Source of the DNA: a virus
Strand: one strand, 5' to 3'
Length of the DNA: 20,766 nucleotides
Virus record (IMG/VR): IMGVR_UViG_3300037193_003446
Span: 1-20,766 of that record
The notes below the pieces were generated by a model that saw only the letters and a program-made list of their open reading frames with translations, did not search any database and was not told the origin of the DNA. Positions 9,164 to 20,766 of the stretch are shown piece after piece; positions within the stretch are counted from its first letter, which is position 1, and each line of letters begins with the position of its first letter. A program made the translations under genes and the position numbers.

Positions 9164-9164
9164 C

Positions 9165-9422
9165 ATGGCCCTTCTCCCCCGCATACTGGGATTCGTCATC
9201 ATGATCGGCGTGCCGCTCGCCCTCATCTGGCTCGGCTCGTGCTGTCCGGCGCCGACCCCTGCCAAGCGGCCCCAGGCGCCCCAGGACGCGTCCAGCGACC
9301 GGGAGTGGCTCCTGGCTCCCTTCCAGCTCTTGGCGGGCTTGGCGGGCCTGTGCTGGTGCCTCATCGGCGTGGCCGCGTTCCTGTCGCCGCTCCTGGCCCT
9401 GGCTTGGCTGGTGGCGCGATGA
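9165..9422 (+). CDS. Two-TM small membrane protein (85 aa)
   Basis: Hydrophobic segments lie at about residues 4-25 and 53-82, separated by a short polar loop (TPAKRPQAPQDASSDREW). The first segment ends LGSCC, lipobox-like, but the second helix argues for an integral membrane protein. A holin-like role is conceivable from topology alone. No lysis gene is adjacent, so I leave it as unknown. Confidence 0.68.
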   Translation: MALLPRILGFVIMIGVPLALIWLGSCCPAPTPAKRPQAPQDASSDREWLLAPFQLLAGLAGLCWCLIGVAAFLSPLLALAWLVAR

Positions 9423-9640
9423 GACGCGCGGCCGTGGGCGCCTCACCCCGCCAAGAGGACGTGCTGGCGGTCGTGCGCGAGCTGGCGGCCGCTGGCGAGC
9501 AACCCTCGAGCTACGCCGTCGCGGAGCGGCTCGGGATTGCCCGCCAGGTGGCGCACCGCCACTTGCTCGCCCTCGAGCGGAAGGGCCTCGTCCGCGACGT
9601 CCCCAAGACGGTCCGGAGCGGGCGCTGGAGCGTCACCTGA
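9419..9640 (+). CDS. Stand-alone winged-helix DNA-binding protein (73 aa)
   Basis: The start overlaps the previous stop (ATGA). Residues about 10-60 have the winged-helix pattern of MarR/LexA-type domains: helix 1 RQEDVLAVVRELAAAG, HTH YAVAERLGIARQVAHRHLLA, then LERKGLVRDV and a short wing (RSGRWSVT). There is no effector domain. It is probably a regulator, perhaps of its own operon. Confidence 0.75.
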   Translation: MRRAAVGASPRQEDVLAVVRELAAAGEQPSSYAVAERLGIARQVAHRHLLALERKGLVRDVPKTVRSGRWSVT

Positions 9641-9724: not shown

Positions 9725-10147
9725 TCAGAACGGGATATCGTCGTCGTCTACCGCGTCGAACTCTTCTGTCTGGGGGCCGCCGCTGCCGCTCTTGGCGGGT
9801 CGCGCCCCGCTGCCGCCGCTGCCGCTGCCCGAGAGGATGACGTTTGAGGCGACGACCTCCGTCCGGTAGCGCTTCTCGCCGTCCTTCTCGTAGCTACTCG
9901 TTCGCAGCCCGCCCTCGATGAACAGCCGATCGCCCTTGCGGACGATCTTCGAGAGGCCCTCCGCGCGCTTGCCCCAGACGACCACGTTGTGCCACTCGGT
10001 GCGCTCTTGGCGCTCCTTGCTCTTGTCGAGGTAGCTCTCCGTGGTCGCCAGGCGCAGTTTGAGGACGGCTTGCCCGCCTCCCGTCATTCGTAGCTCGGGG
10101 TCAGCGCCGAGGTTTCCGAGCAGCAGCACGCGATTCAAGCCGTCCAT
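9725..10147 (-). CDS. ssb: Single-stranded DNA-binding protein
   Basis: SSB coats ssDNA at the replication fork and recruits partners through its acidic tail. The 140-aa protein starts MDGLNRVLLLGNLGADPELR and carries the OB-fold core (AVLKLRLATTESY; EWHNVVVWGKRAEGLSKIV; KGDRLFIEGGLRT). After a glycine-serine linker it ends DDDDIPF, the canonical partner-binding tip. AAAGGA lies just upstream of ATG 10147. The start lies inside the end of the upstream zinc-ribbon gene (13-nt overlap). It is the last gene of a 14-gene minus-strand operon. Confidence 0.97.
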   Translation of the reverse strand: MDGLNRVLLLGNLGADPELRMTGGGQAVLKLRLATTESYLDKSKERQERTEWHNVVVWGKRAEGLSKIVRKGDRLFIEGGLRTSSYEKDGEKRYRTEVVASNVILSGSGSGGSGARPAKSGSGGPQTEEFDAVDDDDIPF

Positions 10148-14400: not shown

Positions 14401-14591
14401 ATCGGCCTCCGCTTGTCGAGCATCCCCATGATGGTGTCCTGAAGCGAGGGCTCGATGACGCCGATGACGCCGATGACGAGGCCCATGCGCTCGCCGGGCT
14501 GGACGAGCGCGAGTGCCTCGAGCATGGCGACGGTGGCGCGCAGACGCGCGATGTCGCCGGACAGGTCCTCCTTCTTCTTCGGGTCGCTCAC
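14397..14591 (-). CDS. Hypothetical small protein (64 aa)
   Basis: GTG 14591 lies inside the previous stop (GTGA). A charged helix (SGDIARLRATVAMLEALALV) is followed by a Gly/Val/Ile segment (GLVIGVIGVIEPSLQDTIMG). It is coupled at both ends. No family is recognised. Confidence 0.72.
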   Translation of the reverse strand: MSDPKKKEDLSGDIARLRATVAMLEALALVQPGERMGLVIGVIGVIEPSLQDTIMGMLDKRRPM

Positions 14592-14827
14592 AGGGCCTTC
14601 TTCCCTTTGGCGGTGAGTCTCGGGCGGATGACGGTGACGGGTTTCATGGTGAGGTAGCCTTTCTCTCGGAGCCTCTGGATGAGGCCGTAGGCGGCGTTGG
14701 GGCTCTTGCCGATGGCAGAAGCGAGTTCGCGGACGGTGGGGGGCTCGCCGCCTTTCTTGTCGGTCAGGCGGCGATAGACGACGAGGGCTTCTTCCTGGAC
14801 GGTGGTGAGATTGCGGTTATCGGGCAC
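14588..14827 (-). CDS. Stand-alone LexA/MarR-type winged-helix regulator (79 aa)
   Basis: GTG 14827 has AAAGGA with about 6-nt spacing; the frame is open further upstream but reads through the operator DNA. Residues about 8-75 form a winged helix: TTVQEEALVVYRRLTDKKGG, then PPTVRELASAIGKSPNAAYG as the HTH, RLREKGYLTM and a wing. This is the LexA N-terminal layout without the S24 cleavage domain. It is the first gene after an operator pair 26-63 bp upstream, so self-regulation of the ssb operon is the simple guess. Confidence 0.8.
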   Translation of the reverse strand: MPDNRNLTTVQEEALVVYRRLTDKKGGEPPTVRELASAIGKSPNAAYGLIQRLREKGYLTMKPVTVIRPRLTAKGKKAL

Positions 14828-14852: not shown

Positions 14853-14890
14853 CTGTGGACAAGTACCAGTTTACTGGTACAAGTACCAGT
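14853..14890. promoter_or_regulatory. Operator pair, 20-bp phased GTAC-AA-GTAC dyads
   Basis: The strong site 14873-14890 is ACTGGTAC-AA-GTACCAGT, with perfect 8-bp arms. The weaker site 14853-14870 keeps the whole right arm (AAGTACCAGT) but has a degenerate left arm. Centres are 20 bp apart, about two helical turns. The strong 18-mer recurs exactly at 20522-20539. Confidence 0.85.
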
Positions 14891-15017
14891 CATGCAATGC
14901 TGCGCCGCACCACCCACAACCACCGTCCATCCCCGTCCATCCCCGCAACTCCCACCCTACCCCCGCACCAAAATGAGGCAGGGCGCGACACGCACCCTAT
15001 ACACTTTCGTCACGCTC

Positions 15018-15033
15018 CGTCTACAAGTAGACG
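15018..15033. promoter_or_regulatory. Dyad CGTCTAC-AA-GTAGACG in front of xis-int
   Basis: Perfect 7-bp arms with an AA centre, followed by GCAC, and a half site GTAGACG at 15058-15064. It lies just downstream of a possible TATACA -10 and 90 bp before the excisionase-like gene. The same dyad recurs inside the initiator gene at 18669-18684 (centre AC). Confidence 0.75.
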
Positions 15034-15122
15034 CACGTGGACGGGGCGCGTCGCTCCGTAGACGTTCCCGGCGCAGGGACGACGCCGGTGGTAAACCCGG
15101 TGGATTCACCGTGGAGGTGGGT

Positions 15123-15464
15123 ATGAGCGACGAAACGGGGCGTGCGCGCCCAAAATACCTGAGGATGGGGCAGGCGGGTGTGGGGACGGGTGCGCCTGAA
15201 AACGACACCGCCCCGGCGTTCACGGTGACGCGGGCGGAGCTGCGGGGGCTCGTGCAGCAGGCGGTGCTCGAGGCGGGGGTGCTGGCGCGAGAGCCCACGC
15301 CGGCGCTGCTCGATCGGGAGGGCCTGGCGTTCGAGCTCGGTTGCAGCTCGGGCTTCGTCGACAAGTTGCGGCGCTCGGGCATGCCGTGCCTGCGCCTCGG
15401 GGACTCGCCCCGCTTCGAGCTCGAGGCGTGCCTGTCGTGGCTCCGAAAGGACGGTGCGGCGTGA
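15123..15464 (+). CDS. Excisionase-like HTH protein (113 aa)
   Basis: ATG 15123 has GGAGG six bases upstream. The N-terminal half is variable and polar. Residues about 62-113 hold an HTH_17/MerR-like domain (LLDREGLAFELGCSSGFVDK, RRSGMPCLRLGDSPRFE, LSWLRK), the AlpA/excisionase layout in which the wing recognises DNA. It is the first gene of the operon that carries int three genes later. Xis-type proteins bend att DNA to direct excision, and they can also repress. Both are possible here. Confidence 0.72.
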   Translation: MSDETGRARPKYLRMGQAGVGTGAPENDTAPAFTVTRAELRGLVQQAVLEAGVLAREPTPALLDREGLAFELGCSSGFVDKLRRSGMPCLRLGDSPRFELEACLSWLRKDGAA

Positions 15465-15694
15465 GCGAGTGGGTGACGAAAACCGTGCGCGCCTACAACG
15501 TGCTCGCGGGCGACGTGGTCGACGTCTTCGACGCGAAGAAGCATCGGGCCGTGAAGCTCACCGTTCAGTGGGTCGACGACTCCGAAGAGCGCGGCGAGCC
15601 CGGCAAGGTCGACATCGGCTTCCGCCGCAAGACGTTCGGGTGGCGACTCGAGCGGCTGAAGCTGGTTCGGGTGCGAAGGCTGGTGAGGCGATGA
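15461..15694 (+). CDS. Hypothetical small protein (77 aa)
   Basis: GTG 15461 overlaps the previous stop as GTGA. The protein is strand-rich and basic (SEWVTKTVRAYNVLAGDVVD, KKHRAVKLTVQWVDDSEERG, FRRKTFGWRLERLKLVRVRR), resembling a small SH3-like barrel. No function is assigned. It is coupled to the next gene (ATGA). Confidence 0.75.
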   Translation: MSEWVTKTVRAYNVLAGDVVDVFDAKKHRAVKLTVQWVDDSEERGEPGKVDIGFRRKTFGWRLERLKLVRVRRLVRR

Positions 15695-15999
15695 CCATCC
15701 AGCGCTGGGACCTGCTCGCCTCGATGGAGGAGATGCACGAGACCCCGGAGGGGGAGTTCGTGCGCTATGAGGACATGGTCGAGGAGTGCGGCCGCCTCGG
15801 CGAGGCGCACGGCGAGACGCTGCGCGAGCTCGCCAGCGTGCGCGAGCGCTACCAGGCAGAGGATGACGTGCTCGCCGCTGCCGAGGCGTGGCTTGTCAGC
15901 TGGCCCGAGCTCGACGACCTCGCGGAGGCTGGAAAGCTCGGCGGGGGCGAGGCTCGACTCTACCGAGCCGTCAAGGCGTTGCGGAAGGTGATGCGATGA
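15691..15999 (+). CDS. Hypothetical helical protein (102 aa)
   Basis: ATG 15691 overlaps the previous stop (ATGA), and the stop overlaps the int start the same way. It is acidic and helical, with a likely coiled coil (ECGRLGEAHGETLRELASVR) and a C-terminal helix (RLYRAVKALRKVMR). The role is unknown; coupling to int suggests co-expression with it. Confidence 0.75.
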   Translation: MTIQRWDLLASMEEMHETPEGEFVRYEDMVEECGRLGEAHGETLRELASVRERYQAEDDVLAAAEAWLVSWPELDDLAEAGKLGGGEARLYRAVKALRKVMR

Positions 16000-17639
16000 C
16001 CGAGCGCAGCAAGGGCGGCCGCCCCCGCACCGCAAAGCCCATCCGTACGAAGAGCGGGCACTCGGTGCGCGTGTGGGTCGAAGAGGAGGGCGAGTGGGTG
16101 CGCAAGCAAGTCCCGCTCGGGACGAAGAGCAAGGTGGTGGCGACCGCGCGCTCCAAACGCCTGCTCGCGGGGGAGGCGCCCGAGCTCGTCGCAGAGAAGA
16201 GCCGCTCGTTTGCAGAGCTGGCCGACGAGATCATCAAGGGCAAGGGGCTCAAGGACGAGAAGCGAGTGCTCCGGCGGCTCGAGCGCCACGCCTACCCCCT
16301 CATCGGCGGCATGCCGGTGACGGAGATCACGAGCGTGCACATTGGCGAAGTGCTCGAGGAGGTCGCCTCCGCGCGCGGGGGCTACACGGGCACGGTGCGC
16401 AACGTGCGCGACCACATCTCGGTCGTGCTCGGTGAGCTCGTCGAGCGGCGGGTGCTCGACATGAACGAAGCCCTGCGGATCAAGTTCAAGGCGAAGGGGG
16501 GCAAGCGCATCCGGCGCGTCCACCTGCCTCGCCCGGTGCTGACGGATGACGAGTTCGAGCGCCTGGTGGAGGGGCTCGTGGGCGAAATCGACCGGGGCGG
16601 AGCCAAGGGGCGGCGGGCGTTCGAGCTGCTCATCCTGTGTCTGGGCGCCCGCATCTTCGGGATGCGCACGAGCGATCTGCACGCCTGGATCTGGGAGATG
16701 ATCGACACGGCTTCGTTCGCGGACGCGTACGTGCCCCGGCCGAAGACGGAAAGCCACCTGCTCGACGACGCCGAAGGCGAGGCCCTCTTCGAGGCGTGGC
16801 GGGACGAGCCCCGGAGCGCCTTGCCGGCGGCGTTCGGGCGCTGGCTCGAGGCGTGGTGGATCGCTGCCGGGCGCCCGGCGTCGGGGGCGGTGTTCGTGGC
16901 CCGCAAGGGCAAGCGCGCGGGGCAGCCCAAGAAGGGGCGCAACTACGTCGAGGTCCTGCGGGCGGCGCTCTGGCGCCTGGGCATCACCCGGCCGCAGCCC
17001 GGCTTCGAGAACGCGTGCGGCGACGACGAGCGCAAGGCGCTCTGCGAGCTACAGAGCGGCATCCCGAGGCGCCGGAGCCCGGTCGACTTTCATTCCTTCC
17101 GCCGGGCGGCGGCGACGGCGGCGGGCCGAGCGGCGGCGGCGGGCGAACTCAGCCTGCGGGCGGCGATGCTGCTGACGCACCACAGTAACCCGGCCATCTT
17201 CGCGAAGTACCAGGCGCGCGAGGACCGTATCGTGGTGCCGGAAAGTGCCGTTCCGAGAGTAATGGCAGCGCCGACGGCATTACTCCAGTCGGTTAATCAC
17301 ACGGCGCAGCCAAAAACGGCTGTCGTCAGAGACAAGGAGGTCGATGTGAAGAGTGCCCGTTCAACCCCAGAGGCTCGTGACCTAGTCGATTCCAGCGGTT
17401 TTTCCCACACGGCAGAGGACCCGATTCACGCCGTAACACCCCGTTCGACCACAGAACGGCAAAACTCGCTGCCATTACCCGAGACCCTCGGCGAGGCCCT
17501 CAACCTCGCCATGAACCTCGCCCTGAAGGAGGACGACATCGTCTCTGCCAAGGCGCTACTCGCCATCGTCGAGCGACGTCGCGCTACCCCACCCGACAAC
17601 GTCGCCACCCTCGACCCGGCGCGCAGGAGGCGGTCATGA
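15996..17639 (+). CDS. int: Tyrosine site-specific recombinase (phage integrase) with long C-terminal tail
   Basis: Tyrosine recombinases integrate and excise phage DNA at att sites. After an N-terminal arm-binding-type region (about 1-65) and a core-binding SAM-like domain (about 65-170), the catalytic domain shows R224 (FGMRTSDL), candidate K250 (PRPKTESH), H366-x-x-R369 (HSFRR), H395/H396 and nucleophile Y405 (FAKYQAR). The ATG overlaps the previous stop. The protein is 547 aa, and the 142 residues after Y405 are unusual because most integrases end soon after the tyrosine. The DNA coding for residues about 412-490 is less GC-rich, with unusual codons, direct repeats and an internal SD-GTG. 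Integrase is firm; the tail function is open. Confidence 0.93.
   Translation: MTERSKGGRPRTAKPIRTKSGHSVRVWVEEEGEWVRKQVPLGTKSKVVATARSKRLLAGEAPELVAEKSRSFAELADEIIKGKGLKDEKRVLRRLERHAYPLIGGMPVTEITSVHIGEVLEEVASARGGYTGTVRNVRDHISVVLGELVERRVLDMNEALRIKFKAKGGKRIRRVHLPRPVLTDDEFERLVEGLVGEIDRGGAKGRRAFELLILCLGARIFGMRTSDLHAWIWEMIDTASFADAYVPRPKTESHLLDDAEGEALFEAWRDEPRSALPAAFGRWLEAWWIAAGRPASGAVFVARKGKRAGQPKKGRNYVEVLRAALWRLGITRPQPGFENACGDDERKALCELQSGIPRRRSPVDFHSFRRAAATAAGRAAAAGELSLRAAMLLTHHSNPAIFAKYQAREDRIVVPESAVPRVMAAPTALLQSVNHTAQPKTAVVRDKEVDVKSARSTPEARDLVDSSGFSHTAEDPIHAVTPRSTTERQNSLPLPETLGEALNLAMNLALKEDDIVSAKALLAIVERRRATPPDNVATLDPARRRRS
17230..17480 (+). other. Anomalous segment in int 3' end, candidate attP
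   Basis: This part of the int tail is less GC-rich than its surroundings and uses codons rare elsewhere (AGT, GTA, TTA, CTA, AAT). It has a 16-bp direct repeat with two mismatches (17356-17371 CCCGTTCAACCCCAGA; 17440-17455 CCCGTTCGACCACAGA). It also has a CCGTTC/GAACGG stem at 17441-17459, and an internal AAGGAGG followed by in-frame GTG 17346. Phage Mx8 carries attP inside int, so attP with arm sites is a reasonable hypothesis here; no core has been identified. Confidence 0.35.
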
Positions 17640-18055
17640 GCGAGCACGGGGACCGTCTCGAGTGGGAGGCGCGCGTGGGCGAGCAGGACGCCCCGAGCTA
17701 CCCCGACGACGTCGTCGCCGTCATGCGCGACACCATCACGGCGCAGCGCGAGGCGCTCGCCGCCAAGAACCAAGTCATCGCTGGCCTGCAAGCGCATCTC
17801 GAGGCGTGTAACCGAACCCTCGAGGAGGGCGCCCAGACCATGACCCTGGCGAAGGTCATCGTCGGCAGCGACCGCGAGCGGCGCGAGAAGATCGCCCACC
17901 TCGAGGCCTGCAACGACCAGCTCCGTATTGCCGAGGCGGAGCTCCGCCGAGAGCTGGCCCGGGTCAGGAGCATCAGCGCCGTGCCCCAGCCCGGCTGCTC
18001 CTGCCCCCATTGCTCCGAGATGAGGGAGCTCGTCCGCATGGAGGCGGCCACGTGA
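17636..18055 (+). CDS. Coiled-coil protein with C-terminal Cys cluster (139 aa)
   Basis: ATG 17636 overlaps the int stop (ATGA). Residues about 28-110 are a long, heptad-like helix (ITAQREALAAKNQVIAGLQA; ACNDQLRIAEAELRRELARV). The C-terminal part carries CSCPHC, a possible metal site together with upstream cysteines in the two LEAC-N segments. It could be a structural or scaffold protein. The function is unknown. Confidence 0.75.
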   Translation: MSEHGDRLEWEARVGEQDAPSYPDDVVAVMRDTITAQREALAAKNQVIAGLQAHLEACNRTLEEGAQTMTLAKVIVGSDRERREKIAHLEACNDQLRIAEAELRRELARVRSISAVPQPGCSCPHCSEMRELVRMEAAT

Positions 18056-18264
18056 GCACCGCGCACGACTGGCTGCGGCGCGACGGGATGACCGTGCGCC
18101 AGATCGCCGCCGAGCTCCGCATCTCCCCCAACCGGGTCAAGCAGCTCGAGCACCGAGCCATCCAGAAGATCCGCGAGAACCCGTGGCTGCTCCGCCGGCT
18201 CTTCCCATTCGTCGACTTCGACTGCGACCTGCTCCCCCAGCCCCAGGAGAGGGCTCACCGATGA
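18052..18264 (+). CDS. Sigma-70 region-4-like HTH protein (70 aa)
   Basis: GTG 18052 overlaps the previous stop (GTGA). Residues about 13-42 (MTVRQIAAELRISPNRVKQL then EHRAIQKIREN) match the sigma region 4.2 helix-turn-helix, including the Q-L-E-x-R-A-x-x-K-I-R signature that binds the -35 element. There is no region 2. It could be a stand-alone sigma4-type regulator, an anti-sigma decoy or simply a small HTH protein. It is coupled to the initiator gene (ATGA). Confidence 0.75.
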   Translation: MSTAHDWLRRDGMTVRQIAAELRISPNRVKQLEHRAIQKIRENPWLLRRLFPFVDFDCDLLPQPQERAHR

Positions 18265-19346
18265 GGCATCCCTACACCCCCGTCTTCCGCGACTTCCTCA
18301 CGAGCAGCATGTGGGCAACCGACCCGGCTACCCGCTGCGTCTGGATCTGGTTCCTGCTCATGGCCGACCCCGAGGGCTTCGTCGTCGGCACCGTGCCCGG
18401 CGTCGCCCAGCAGGCAGGCGTCACGCTCGAGCAAGCCAAGGTCGCCATCGCGCTGCTCGAGAGCCCCGACCCCTACTCTTCGACGCCCGACTTCGAAGGT
18501 CGTCGCATCGTCAAAGCCGAGCGCGGCTGGCACATCGTCAACTTCGTCGCGCACCGCGAGCGCGCCAAGCGCGAGGCCGAGCTCGCCCGCAAGCGGCGCT
18601 GGGCAGAAGCAAACCGCGGCAAGCCGAAGCAACTGCCACTGCCATTCCCCGAGGAGACCGACGCCATCCGTCTACACGTAGACGCGAGTAGCGAAACCTT
18701 AGACGCACAGAAACCTAAACCTAAACAGAAACCCTCTCCGGAAGTAGTTGTTACAACCGCGCGCGAGGGCTTCGATACCGAAGAGCTGCCGGTCATCCCC
18801 GTGCGGCGCGCCTTCCACGACCTCGACGGCATGGACGAGACGGGGCTCGAAGACGAGGCGGTCGTCGCCGGCATGAGCCGGGAGTGGTTCCGAGAGCGGC
18901 TCAAGAGCGCGCGCAACCTCGCCACCATCGGCGGCCAGCAGGGCGTGCGCGATCAGCGCGAGTGGGTGCGGCAGCAGTTCGGCAACTGGAAGACCTGGGA
19001 GGAGACCAACCGCGCCAAGGATGCCCAACGCCAGGCCGCGCCGGCCCCGTCTAGGCGCTTTGGTTCGTCGCCGACGCCGGCGGACCCCTTCGAGCCCGAC
19101 GCGCAGCAGGAGGCGTTTGCGCGCAAGCACGGCCTGCCCCTCGAGGAGCTGCTGAAAGGTGTGCTCGCTGACCACCCGCAGCCCTCGGCGTCGCTGTCGC
19201 GGCTCGATGTGCTCTCCGAGCGACTCACGGTCGCCGCCAAGCAGAAGCGCGCCGGCGTCGCCGTCACCGGCAAGCTCACGCGCGAGCAGGTTGCCCAGTG
19301 GGGTCCCTGCCCGGCGGGCGGCGCCATCCCTCGGGAGGTGGCGTGA
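18261..19346 (+). CDS. Phage replication initiator / replisome organizer (361 aa)
   Basis: ATG 18261 overlaps the previous stop (ATGA). Residues about 1-110 form a winged-helix domain typical of phage replisome organizers (YTPVFRDFLTSSMWATDPAT; LLMADPEGFVVGTVPGVAQQ; WHIVNFVAHRERAKRE). A basic linker follows, then about residues 137-165 encoded by an AT-rich, repeat-bearing stretch. A C-terminal helical region follows (SREWFRERLKSARNLATIGG; WVRQQFGNWKTWEE). The layout parallels lambda O, whose gene contains the origin. No helicase motifs are present, so it should load a helicase rather than unwind. The replication role is likely but not proven. Confidence 0.72.
   Translation: MRHPYTPVFRDFLTSSMWATDPATRCVWIWFLLMADPEGFVVGTVPGVAQQAGVTLEQAKVAIALLESPDPYSSTPDFEGRRIVKAERGWHIVNFVAHRERAKREAELARKRRWAEANRGKPKQLPLPFPEETDAIRLHVDASSETLDAQKPKPKQKPSPEVVVTTAREGFDTEELPVIPVRRAFHDLDGMDETGLEDEAVVAGMSREWFRERLKSARNLATIGGQQGVRDQREWVRQQFGNWKTWEETNRAKDAQRQAAPAPSRRFGSSPTPADPFEPDAQQEAFARKHGLPLEELLKGVLADHPQPSASLSRLDVLSERLTVAAKQKRAGVAVTGKLTREQVAQWGPCPAGGAIPREVA
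18669..18760 (+). other. Candidate replication origin inside the initiator gene
   Basis: A 16-bp dyad CGTCTAC-AC-GTAGACG (18669-18684) is followed by an A-rich stretch with GAAACC at 18693, 18710 and 18728 (17- and 18-bp steps), tandem AAACCT at 18711 and 18717, and TAGACGC at 18679 and 18700. Codons here (CTA, GTA, TTA, AGT, AAA, CCT, GTT) break the GC-ending bias on both sides, so the DNA itself seems to be under selection. Confidence 0.6.
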
Positions 19347-19921
19347 TGGCGGCCGTCGAAGCCTACCCGCTCGCATGGCCCGATGGGTGGCCGCGCACCC
19401 GGGCCCCCGCCGCGGGCTCCTACAAGGTCACGTTCCTGCAGGCGCGTGACCACCTCGCCAACCAGCTGAAGCTCGCGCGCGGCCGCGACGTCGTCATCAG
19501 CACGAACGTGCCGCTCCGCCGCGATGGGCTGCCGCTCGCGAACATGGCCGAGCCCAAGGACCCCGGCGTCGCCGCCTATTGGACCGACAAGAAGGGCAAG
19601 CCTCGGGTCTGCGCCTGCGATCATTGGCGCACGGTGCGCGAGAACCTGCGCGCCGTCGGGCTCACCATCGAAGCGCTCCGCAGTATCGAGCGCGCCGGGG
19701 CGAGCGAGCTGCTCGAGCGCGCCTTTTCCGGCTTCGCCCGCCTGCCCGAAACGACGTCGGACGCGTGGAGCGAACTCGGCCTGCCGCGGGGGACGAGCCG
19801 AGCCGAGGTCGAGGCCCGCTACCGAGAGCTCGCTCGAATCCACCACCCCGACCGTGGCGGCTCCGTCTCGCGGATGGCCGCCATCAATCGGGCCTACCAC
19901 GAACTGAAGGGGGCCCCGTGA
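19346..19921 (+). CDS. Phage protein with C-terminal J-domain (191 aa)
   Basis: ATG 19346 has GGAGG about 8 nt upstream and overlaps the previous stop (TGATG). The N-terminal part (TFLQARDHLANQLKLARGRD; VVISTNVPLRRDGLPLANMA; PRVCACDHWRTVRENLRAVG; SIERAGASELLERAFSGFAR) is a widespread phage/island family. Residues about 139-190 form a J-domain with the diagnostic HPD (ARIHHPDRGG). J-domains stimulate DnaK ATPase; lambda P-type replication needs DnaJ/DnaK. Next to the initiator, it may recruit host DnaK to remodel the replication complex. That role is inference; the J-domain is clear. Confidence 0.88.
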   Translation: MAAVEAYPLAWPDGWPRTRAPAAGSYKVTFLQARDHLANQLKLARGRDVVISTNVPLRRDGLPLANMAEPKDPGVAAYWTDKKGKPRVCACDHWRTVRENLRAVGLTIEALRSIERAGASELLERAFSGFARLPETTSDAWSELGLPRGTSRAEVEARYRELARIHHPDRGGSVSRMAAINRAYHELKGAP

Positions 19922-20205
19922 TCGACTACGCCCAGCGCCGCCTCACCCGGACGCAAGAGCGGGTGCTGCTCTTCATCGCCAACTACATGAGCGAGCGCGG
20001 CTATGCGCCGACGACCCGCGACATCTGCGCGCACCTCGGCGCCGTCAGCCCGCACACGGCCCTCGGTCACCGCAAGGCGCTCGAGCGGAGGGGCCTGCTC
20101 GAGATGATTCGCTACAGGGGGCGGACTCTCCGACTCACCGCCAAGGGCAAGGAGCACGCGGCGACGCTGCGCGAAGAAGAGCGGGTGAGGAGGGCGGTCG
20201 GATGA
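19918..20205 (+). CDS. LexA-type winged-helix DNA-binding protein (95 aa)
   Basis: GTG 19918 overlaps the previous stop (GTGA). The sequence follows the LexA N-terminal domain closely: LTRTQERVLLFIANYMSERG, APTTRDICAHLGAVSPHTAL as the HTH, and ALERRGLLEMIRYRGRTLRL as helix plus wing. There is no Ala-Gly cleavage site or S24 protease domain, so it cannot self-cleave. It is a candidate ligand for the operator pair at 20522-20559, about 320 bp downstream. Confidence 0.85.
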   Translation: MIDYAQRRLTRTQERVLLFIANYMSERGYAPTTRDICAHLGAVSPHTALGHRKALERRGLLEMIRYRGRTLRLTAKGKEHAATLREEERVRRAVG

Positions 20206-20498
20206 TACCCACAATCCGGATGCACCCGGTGCCCTGGAGCCTGTCGTTCCAGCACGCGAAGAAGGGCGACGTCTTCTTCGTCGTGCTCGATGGGCTGCGC
20301 TGGCCGCTCGAGCTCCGACAGAAGCCGCCGCGCGTGCGCCTGCTCGAAGACGGCAAGCGCCGCAGCGCGCCGGTCATCTGCGAGATACTCGACCCCTGGC
20401 CGAACGCGCCCGACTACTACCCGCCCGAATGGAAGCCTGGCGCCGGCCCCGCTCCCGTGGGCTCGCTCTATCACCACTGCCCCGTTCCGGGATATTAA
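20202..20498 (+). CDS. Hypothetical protein (98 aa)
   Basis: ATG 20202 overlaps the previous stop (ATGA). The protein is strand-rich (PWSLSFQHAKKGDVFFVVLD, RWPLELRQKPPRVRLLEDGK). It has a proline/tyrosine-rich C-terminus (NAPDYYPPEWKPGAGPAP). No family is recognised. It closes the coupled run before the second operator pair. Confidence 0.75.
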   Translation: MIPTIRMHPVPWSLSFQHAKKGDVFFVVLDGLRWPLELRQKPPRVRLLEDGKRRSAPVICEILDPWPNAPDYYPPEWKPGAGPAPVGSLYHHCPVPGY

Positions 20499-20521
20499 TC
20501 GACATGAGAGCGCCTGGCTTC

Positions 20522-20559
20522 ACTGGTACAAGTACCAGTCCAATGGTACAAGTACCGGA
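20522..20559. promoter_or_regulatory. Second operator pair, upstream of gene at 20566
   Basis: The strong site 20522-20539 is identical to 14873-14890 (ACTGGTAC-AA-GTACCAGT). The weaker site 20542-20559 is AATGGTAC-AA-GTACCGGA. The centres are again 20 bp apart. The second site ends 6 bp before the ATG and covers the SD (GGAG at 20556-20559), so binding would block transcription or translation start. Confidence 0.85.
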
Positions 20560-20565
20560 GTGGAT

Positions 20566-20766
20566 ATGACCACGCACTACGCCCAGCACCGGGCCCGGCT
20601 GCAGTTTTCGAGGAAGCTCGAACAGCTACACTTCGAGCTCAGCGTCGAGAGCCCCCGGCGCGTGCTCGACTACCTCATCGACCATCTCGACGACCTGCTA
20701 TCCCGGGTGGGAGACAACACCCTGCGCGACGCATTCGCCGAACAGCTGCGCGCCGCCAAGCTCTCC
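20566..20766 (+). CDS. Hypothetical helical protein, cut by window edge
   Basis: ATG 20566 has GGAG about 6 nt upstream, and the frame is open to the right edge (67 codons). It is helical and charged (QHRARLQFSRKLEQLHFELS; RVLDYLIDHLDDLLSRVGDN; LRDAFAEQLRAAKLS). It is the first gene of a new transcription unit controlled by the operator pair. The family is unknown because most of the gene may lie outside the window. Confidence 0.7.
   Translation, partial: MTTHYAQHRARLQFSRKLEQLHFELSVESPRRVLDYLIDHLDDLLSRVGDNTLRDAFAEQLRAAKLS

Follow-up and report, generated by a model that had tools for sequence, protein, structure and literature searches.

Candidate left and right operators of a LexA-type early-gene switch in an integrase-carrying phage

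Most temperate-phage switches that have been studied well rely on repressors whose activity is ended by cleavage, an antirepressor or a signal. To our knowledge, little is known of early control in the myxophages Mx8 and Mx9. LexA boxes have the outer geometry CTG-N10-CAG. The nearest studied protein to the one considered here, gp6 of GIL01, is a truncated homologue of LexA whose palindromic site lies at the -35 region and which acts as an activator (PMC6182141), and the LexA of M. xanthus recognises CTRHAMRYBYGTTCAGS (PMC9705874).

The viral DNA analysed here (the window, 20,766 nucleotides) is a 20.8-kb fragment; its relatives measure 44-49 kb where nearly whole, and more copies of the box described below may lie elsewhere. 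The sequence of the window supports a single phased operator system at two loci, as a preliminary description had proposed, and one that is phage-specific and serves two transcription units.

Two paired operators in the window

The 18-mer ACTGGTACAAGTACCAGT occurs exactly at both 14873-14890 and 20522-20539, confirming the recurrence first reported, and has the outer geometry CTG-N10-CAG. At each locus this strong box is accompanied by a weaker one at a spacing of exactly 20 bp. In the right operator, on the plus strand, the companion AATGGTACAAGTACCGGA (20542-20559) is identical to the box at 15/18 positions, retains an intact GGTAC-NN-GTACC core, and stops 6 nt short of the ATG at 20566, so that the pair does abut this start codon. 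The left operator lies on the minus strand, where the strong box, 46-63 nt ahead of the w79 GTG, reads ACTGGTACTTGTACCAGT in gene orientation. Its companion at 14853-14870 (CTGTGGACAAGTACCAGT; ACTGGTACTTGTCCACAG as the minus-strand feature) is 13/18 identical to the box and pairs at just 3/9 positions; it is therefore an intact right half-site, directly repeating half of the strong box, and not the weaker dyad that had been proposed at both loci, although the 20-bp spacing holds at each. In the orientation of the gene that follows, the two operators have the same order (strong distal box, 2 bp, weak proximal box), and the best offset for a gene-strand self-match is 20 at the left and right loci alike (12/13 and 13/13).

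The left operator is situated 26-63 bp upstream of w79 (14588-14827, minus strand), whose GTG start is preceded by AGAAAGGA, a good ribosome-binding site. This 79-aa gene is the first of a leftward minus-strand run reaching down to the gene for a single-strand DNA-binding protein, ssb (9725-10147, minus strand). Earlier the left pair had been placed ahead of an ssb operon; ssb is indeed on the appropriate strand, but the direct neighbour is w79, and ssb comes roughly 4.4 kb after it. Near ssb, at 9164-9637, is a further short winged-helix ORF of weak LexA-domain likeness, with related ORFs in L143, L145, L148, L149, L151 and L152 (records introduced below). The right operator occupies most of the 67-bp gap between a 98-aa gene (w98) and w67 (20566-20766, plus strand), of which 67 codons precede the contig end. 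The counterpart of w67 in L143 is 80 aa long and overlaps a 582-aa gene with matches to 5'-3' exonuclease and single-strand-annealing domains. A sigma-70 promoter scan gave no match at either operator. The minus-strand sequence TTGTCCACA (14855-14863), which overlaps the left proximal box, resembles a high-GC DnaA box. It is retained irrespective of operator type, unchanged in L141 and L148 and as TTGTCCATA in L143; control by DnaA is conceivable at this place.

Chance recurrence of the 18-mer had been called very unlikely, and dinucleotide shuffles of the window, which yielded 0 matches to the box at up to 3 mismatches, agree. We also applied a sequence-blind test, collecting all recurring dyads in the window whose 7-bp arms are perfect and separated by 2 bp, with 60 shuffles as control. 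Two such dyads were recovered, and none in the shuffles: the operator box and a second dyad that the preliminary description had overlooked. The latter is 16 bp long (CGTCTAC-NN-GTAGACG) and shares the TAC-NN-GTA core of the operators. One copy, CGTCTACAAGTAGACG, is found at 15018-15033 and occupies the same position, beside conserved CTATACACTT, in L143 (CGTCTACACGTAGACG) and in L141, where paired changes preserve the palindrome (CGTCTAGTACTAGACG); the other, CGTCTACACGTAGACG at 18669-18684, falls inside the 361-aa gene, differs by one change in L143 and is not palindromic in L141. The binder of this dyad may be the second of the LexA-like proteins discussed later or the product of a 113-aa excisionase-like gene (15123-15464, plus strand), which has a weak match only and is conserved beside the integrase in most relatives. 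The non-coding stretch at 14966-15008, CGCACCAAAATGA-GCAGGGCGCGACACGCACCCTATACACTT, is nearly identical in L141 and partly so in L143 and L148; it is probably a rightward promoter or other cis element.

The operators of related phages

Searches of viral contigs with w79, the integrase or w95 as single proteins returned no close relatives, whereas alignment-based queries succeeded, recovering L143/L146, L141/L147, L148, L149, L145/L150, L151 and L152, which we count as seven related records. All seven carry a w79 ortholog. Most relatives have a common gene order: w79, then on the other side of the left operator the excisionase-like gene, the integrase, a sigma-like helix-turn-helix gene, a 361-aa replication-type gene, in some a DnaJ-like gene, w95, w98 and w67; some of these genes are absent from the more distant relatives. 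The sigma-like product (18055-18264) is a 69-aa protein consisting of a helix-turn-helix of the sigma-70 region 4 type alone. The DnaJ-domain protein (19346-19921; phrog_9210), which also occurs in cyanophage and in phages of Gordonia and Microbacterium, is present in the window and in L148 and was not detected in L143 or L141.

Among the sister phages, the two loci and the pairing of boxes are retained, and the boxes themselves have altered in sequence at each locus. In L143, whose w79 recognition helix (SPNAAHQLIQRLREKG) is nearly identical to that of the window (SPNAAYGLIQRLREKG) and has the SPNAA motif, a ranking of every 18-mer in the 20.3 kb by similarity to the window box puts the left and right operator positions in the top two places (3 and 5 mismatches). 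In L141 the helix is changed (SHSAAYQFIQQF); the flanking DNA aligns and both operators are replaced. L141, L148 and L149, with their differing helices, each have another box type at both sites, mostly 20-21 bp apart and without the CTG-N10-CAG geometry, the boxes of L141 and L148 having been partly chosen by eye. The right operator of L148 includes a perfect 15-bp dyad, ATTGACAAGGTCAAT. In L149, a dyad different from the window box, TTGAC-N3-GTCAA, recurs at both loci: the best match to the left copy elsewhere in 16.8 kb is the right copy, and the best match to the right copy is the left, tied with one other place. A third close match to the L149 box, GTTGACGCCGTCAAT, is located away from both operators (L149:3694-3708), and in L141 the half-sites GAACAGCG, TGACAGTG and GGACAACG follow one another at 21-bp steps (L141:10566-10625), suggesting a longer phased array. 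A search for the right operator of L145 did not find it.

When the operators of the relatives were compared with themselves at 32 shifts (13 to 44 bp), the mean self-match peaked at 21 bp, and the best shift was 20 or 21 for the left and right operators of L147, the left operator of L148 and the right operator of L149. Against shuffles, the P values of single phages are modest (about 0.09 for L146, 0.06 for L147 and 0.003 for L149; not significant for L148 and L150, for which a generic paired-dyad statistic is too weak), and against random pairs from the same genome only the window falls below 0.05. The argument for conservation accordingly rests on the joint pattern across phages and not on these individual P values.

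The closest Myxococcota relative of the tyrosine integrase (15996-17639, plus strand) is 42% identical to it, which, together with the Mx8-like protein described below, suggests a Myxococcota host. Neither a LexA-like gene nor dyads of this kind turned up in the regions around integrase relatives in Myxococcota. As a family signal in other viral contigs, the exact box was tried and rejected: it gave 28 matches, none with the window's tandem phased layout and many of them plainly coding repeats.

Candidate binders and rival readings

The window encodes two proteins with a LexA-type winged helix, and neither has a peptidase domain. The first, w79, corresponds to the LexA DNA-binding domain alone (Pfam LexA_DNA_bind, PF01726, 39.1 bits; cut-off 23.7), lacking the C-terminal S24 self-cleaving peptidase. 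Its structural model (mean pLDDT 77, with low confidence at the wing and C-terminus) is closest to LexA crystal structures, including LexA-DNA complexes, at E-values of about 0.01-0.05 for so short a chain. The second, the 95-aa w95 (19918-20205, plus strand), is likewise above the Pfam cut-off, with a stronger match to LexA_DNA_bind than w79, and is 33-35% identical to its relatives Mx8 p17 and Mx9 p47.

We consider it rather probable that the phage encodes an early-gene switch whose left and right operators are these two sites, and in which w79 autoregulates its own operon and controls both. In this scheme, each 18-bp box would take up two w79 subunits, the strong distal box being occupied before the weak proximal box 20 bp on; a 20-bp step, or about two helical turns, would place both boxes on the same face of the DNA, a phasing compatible with cooperative binding. 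The promoter of the w79-to-ssb operon would be covered at the left, giving negative feedback of w79 on its own operon, and that of the w67-exonuclease/annealing operon at the right. Both DNA-metabolism operons would thus be under the joint control of a single small protein, whose predicted effect is repression. As the first gene of an operon that includes ssb, w79 is about as likely to have an early negative-feedback (Cro-like) role as to be a lysogeny repressor.

The stronger domain match of w95, its position about 320 bp ahead of the right operator, and the presence in the window of the second TAC-NN-GTA dyad would fit a reading in which w95 binds the operators, alone or in competition with w79 for the same boxes, as CI and Cro do. 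We regard this as unlikely. In L149, no LexA-type ORF is found between the relatives of w361 and w98, the syntenic place of w95, and matching boxes are still present at both loci. Further, the w95 helices of the window and L143 differ (SPHTALGH and SPHTGFCS, respectively) where the boxes are alike and the w79 helices nearly identical. We therefore favour w79 as the binder, both because it adjoins the left operator and because L149 has its paired boxes without a syntenic relative of w95. Granting w79 as the binder, its effect could instead be activation of both operons. This stays a candidate because GIL01 gp6, a LexA DNA-binding-domain protein with the 14-bp palindrome GaCACAn-nTGTGaC, is an activator (PMC6182141); moreover, the right distal box of L141 and L148 contains TTGACA 17 bp ahead of a weak -10-like hexamer, from the position of which the boxes of these phages may overlap the -35 and -10 elements. 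Activation nevertheless appears quite improbable: the right proximal box is so close to its start codon as to be suited to blocking, and activation of an operon that w79 itself heads would presumably mean positive feedback.

A third reading, that the host LexA binds the boxes and couples the phage to the SOS system of its host in the manner of GIL01, draws on their LexA-like outer geometry and is very improbable. Among 84,980 prokaryotic species, the exact box (with any central 2 nt) had 51 matches, all within long open frames and none with a convincing phased partner, and in no species was it a recurrent intergenic element; with 2 mismatches, it was not commoner in 284 Myxococcota genomes than a reversed-pattern control. 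In these scans, the second of which covers the presumed host group only, the box was not seen at host-type DNA-repair promoters. Myxococcota lexA promoters carry GAAC-N4-GTTC-type sites instead, the M. xanthus LexA site cited above also speaks against this reading, and in the sister phages both sites change together. On the strength of the genome-wide scan and the lexA promoters, the box was ruled out as a host SOS box. A broader version of the favoured w79 reading is conceivable but doubtful: these would be a temperate phage family whose immunity depends on a bare, non-cleaving LexA domain acting at paired operators, which diverge with the recognition helix into specificity groups, and in which w95 and the second dyad supply a counter-circuit, two LexA domains and two operator codes together making the lysis-lysogeny switch.

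Comparison with known systems

The conserved candidate regulator is a domain-only LexA that lacks the cleavage half, in phages distantly linked to Mx8 and Mx9. The matched changes in recognition helix and both operators across sister phages would offer a ready system for reading LexA-type specificity and would open the induction of such a phage to direct test.

The myxophage proteins Mx8 p17 and Mx9 p47 are also short, LexA-like and encoded between the integrase and early genes; in contrast to the window, the gaps next to them are without comparable paired boxes in the regions read. With LexA and its SOS boxes, the present system has in common the LexA_DNA_bind domain, the outer geometry of the box and the SPNAA recognition motif that E. 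coli LexA also has; it differs in lacking the peptidase domain, in a box that is absent as a shared host element, and in the variability of that box among sister phages. The lambda operators OL and OR, with CI and Cro, provide a parallel for one operator family at leftward and rightward early operons (early timing being deduced here from gene content), for boxes about two turns apart, and for operators that have diverged between sister phages without changing place. Unlike lambda, the window has a LexA-type winged-helix fold, two boxes per operator and a regulator that heads the left operon, and no CI-like repressor with HTH_3 and S24 peptidase was found, neither HTH_3 nor PF00717 being above cut-off in the seven related records, which may be incomplete. 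Gp6 of the tectivirus GIL01 (PMC6182141) is also a phage-encoded LexA DNA-binding domain without a peptidase, has a specificity distinct from that of the host LexA, and uses a palindromic box with a 2-nt centre. Gp6, however, activates one late promoter from one site, whereas the candidate operators described here are two-box elements before two DNA-metabolism operons, one of them the regulator's own, in integrase-carrying tailed phages.
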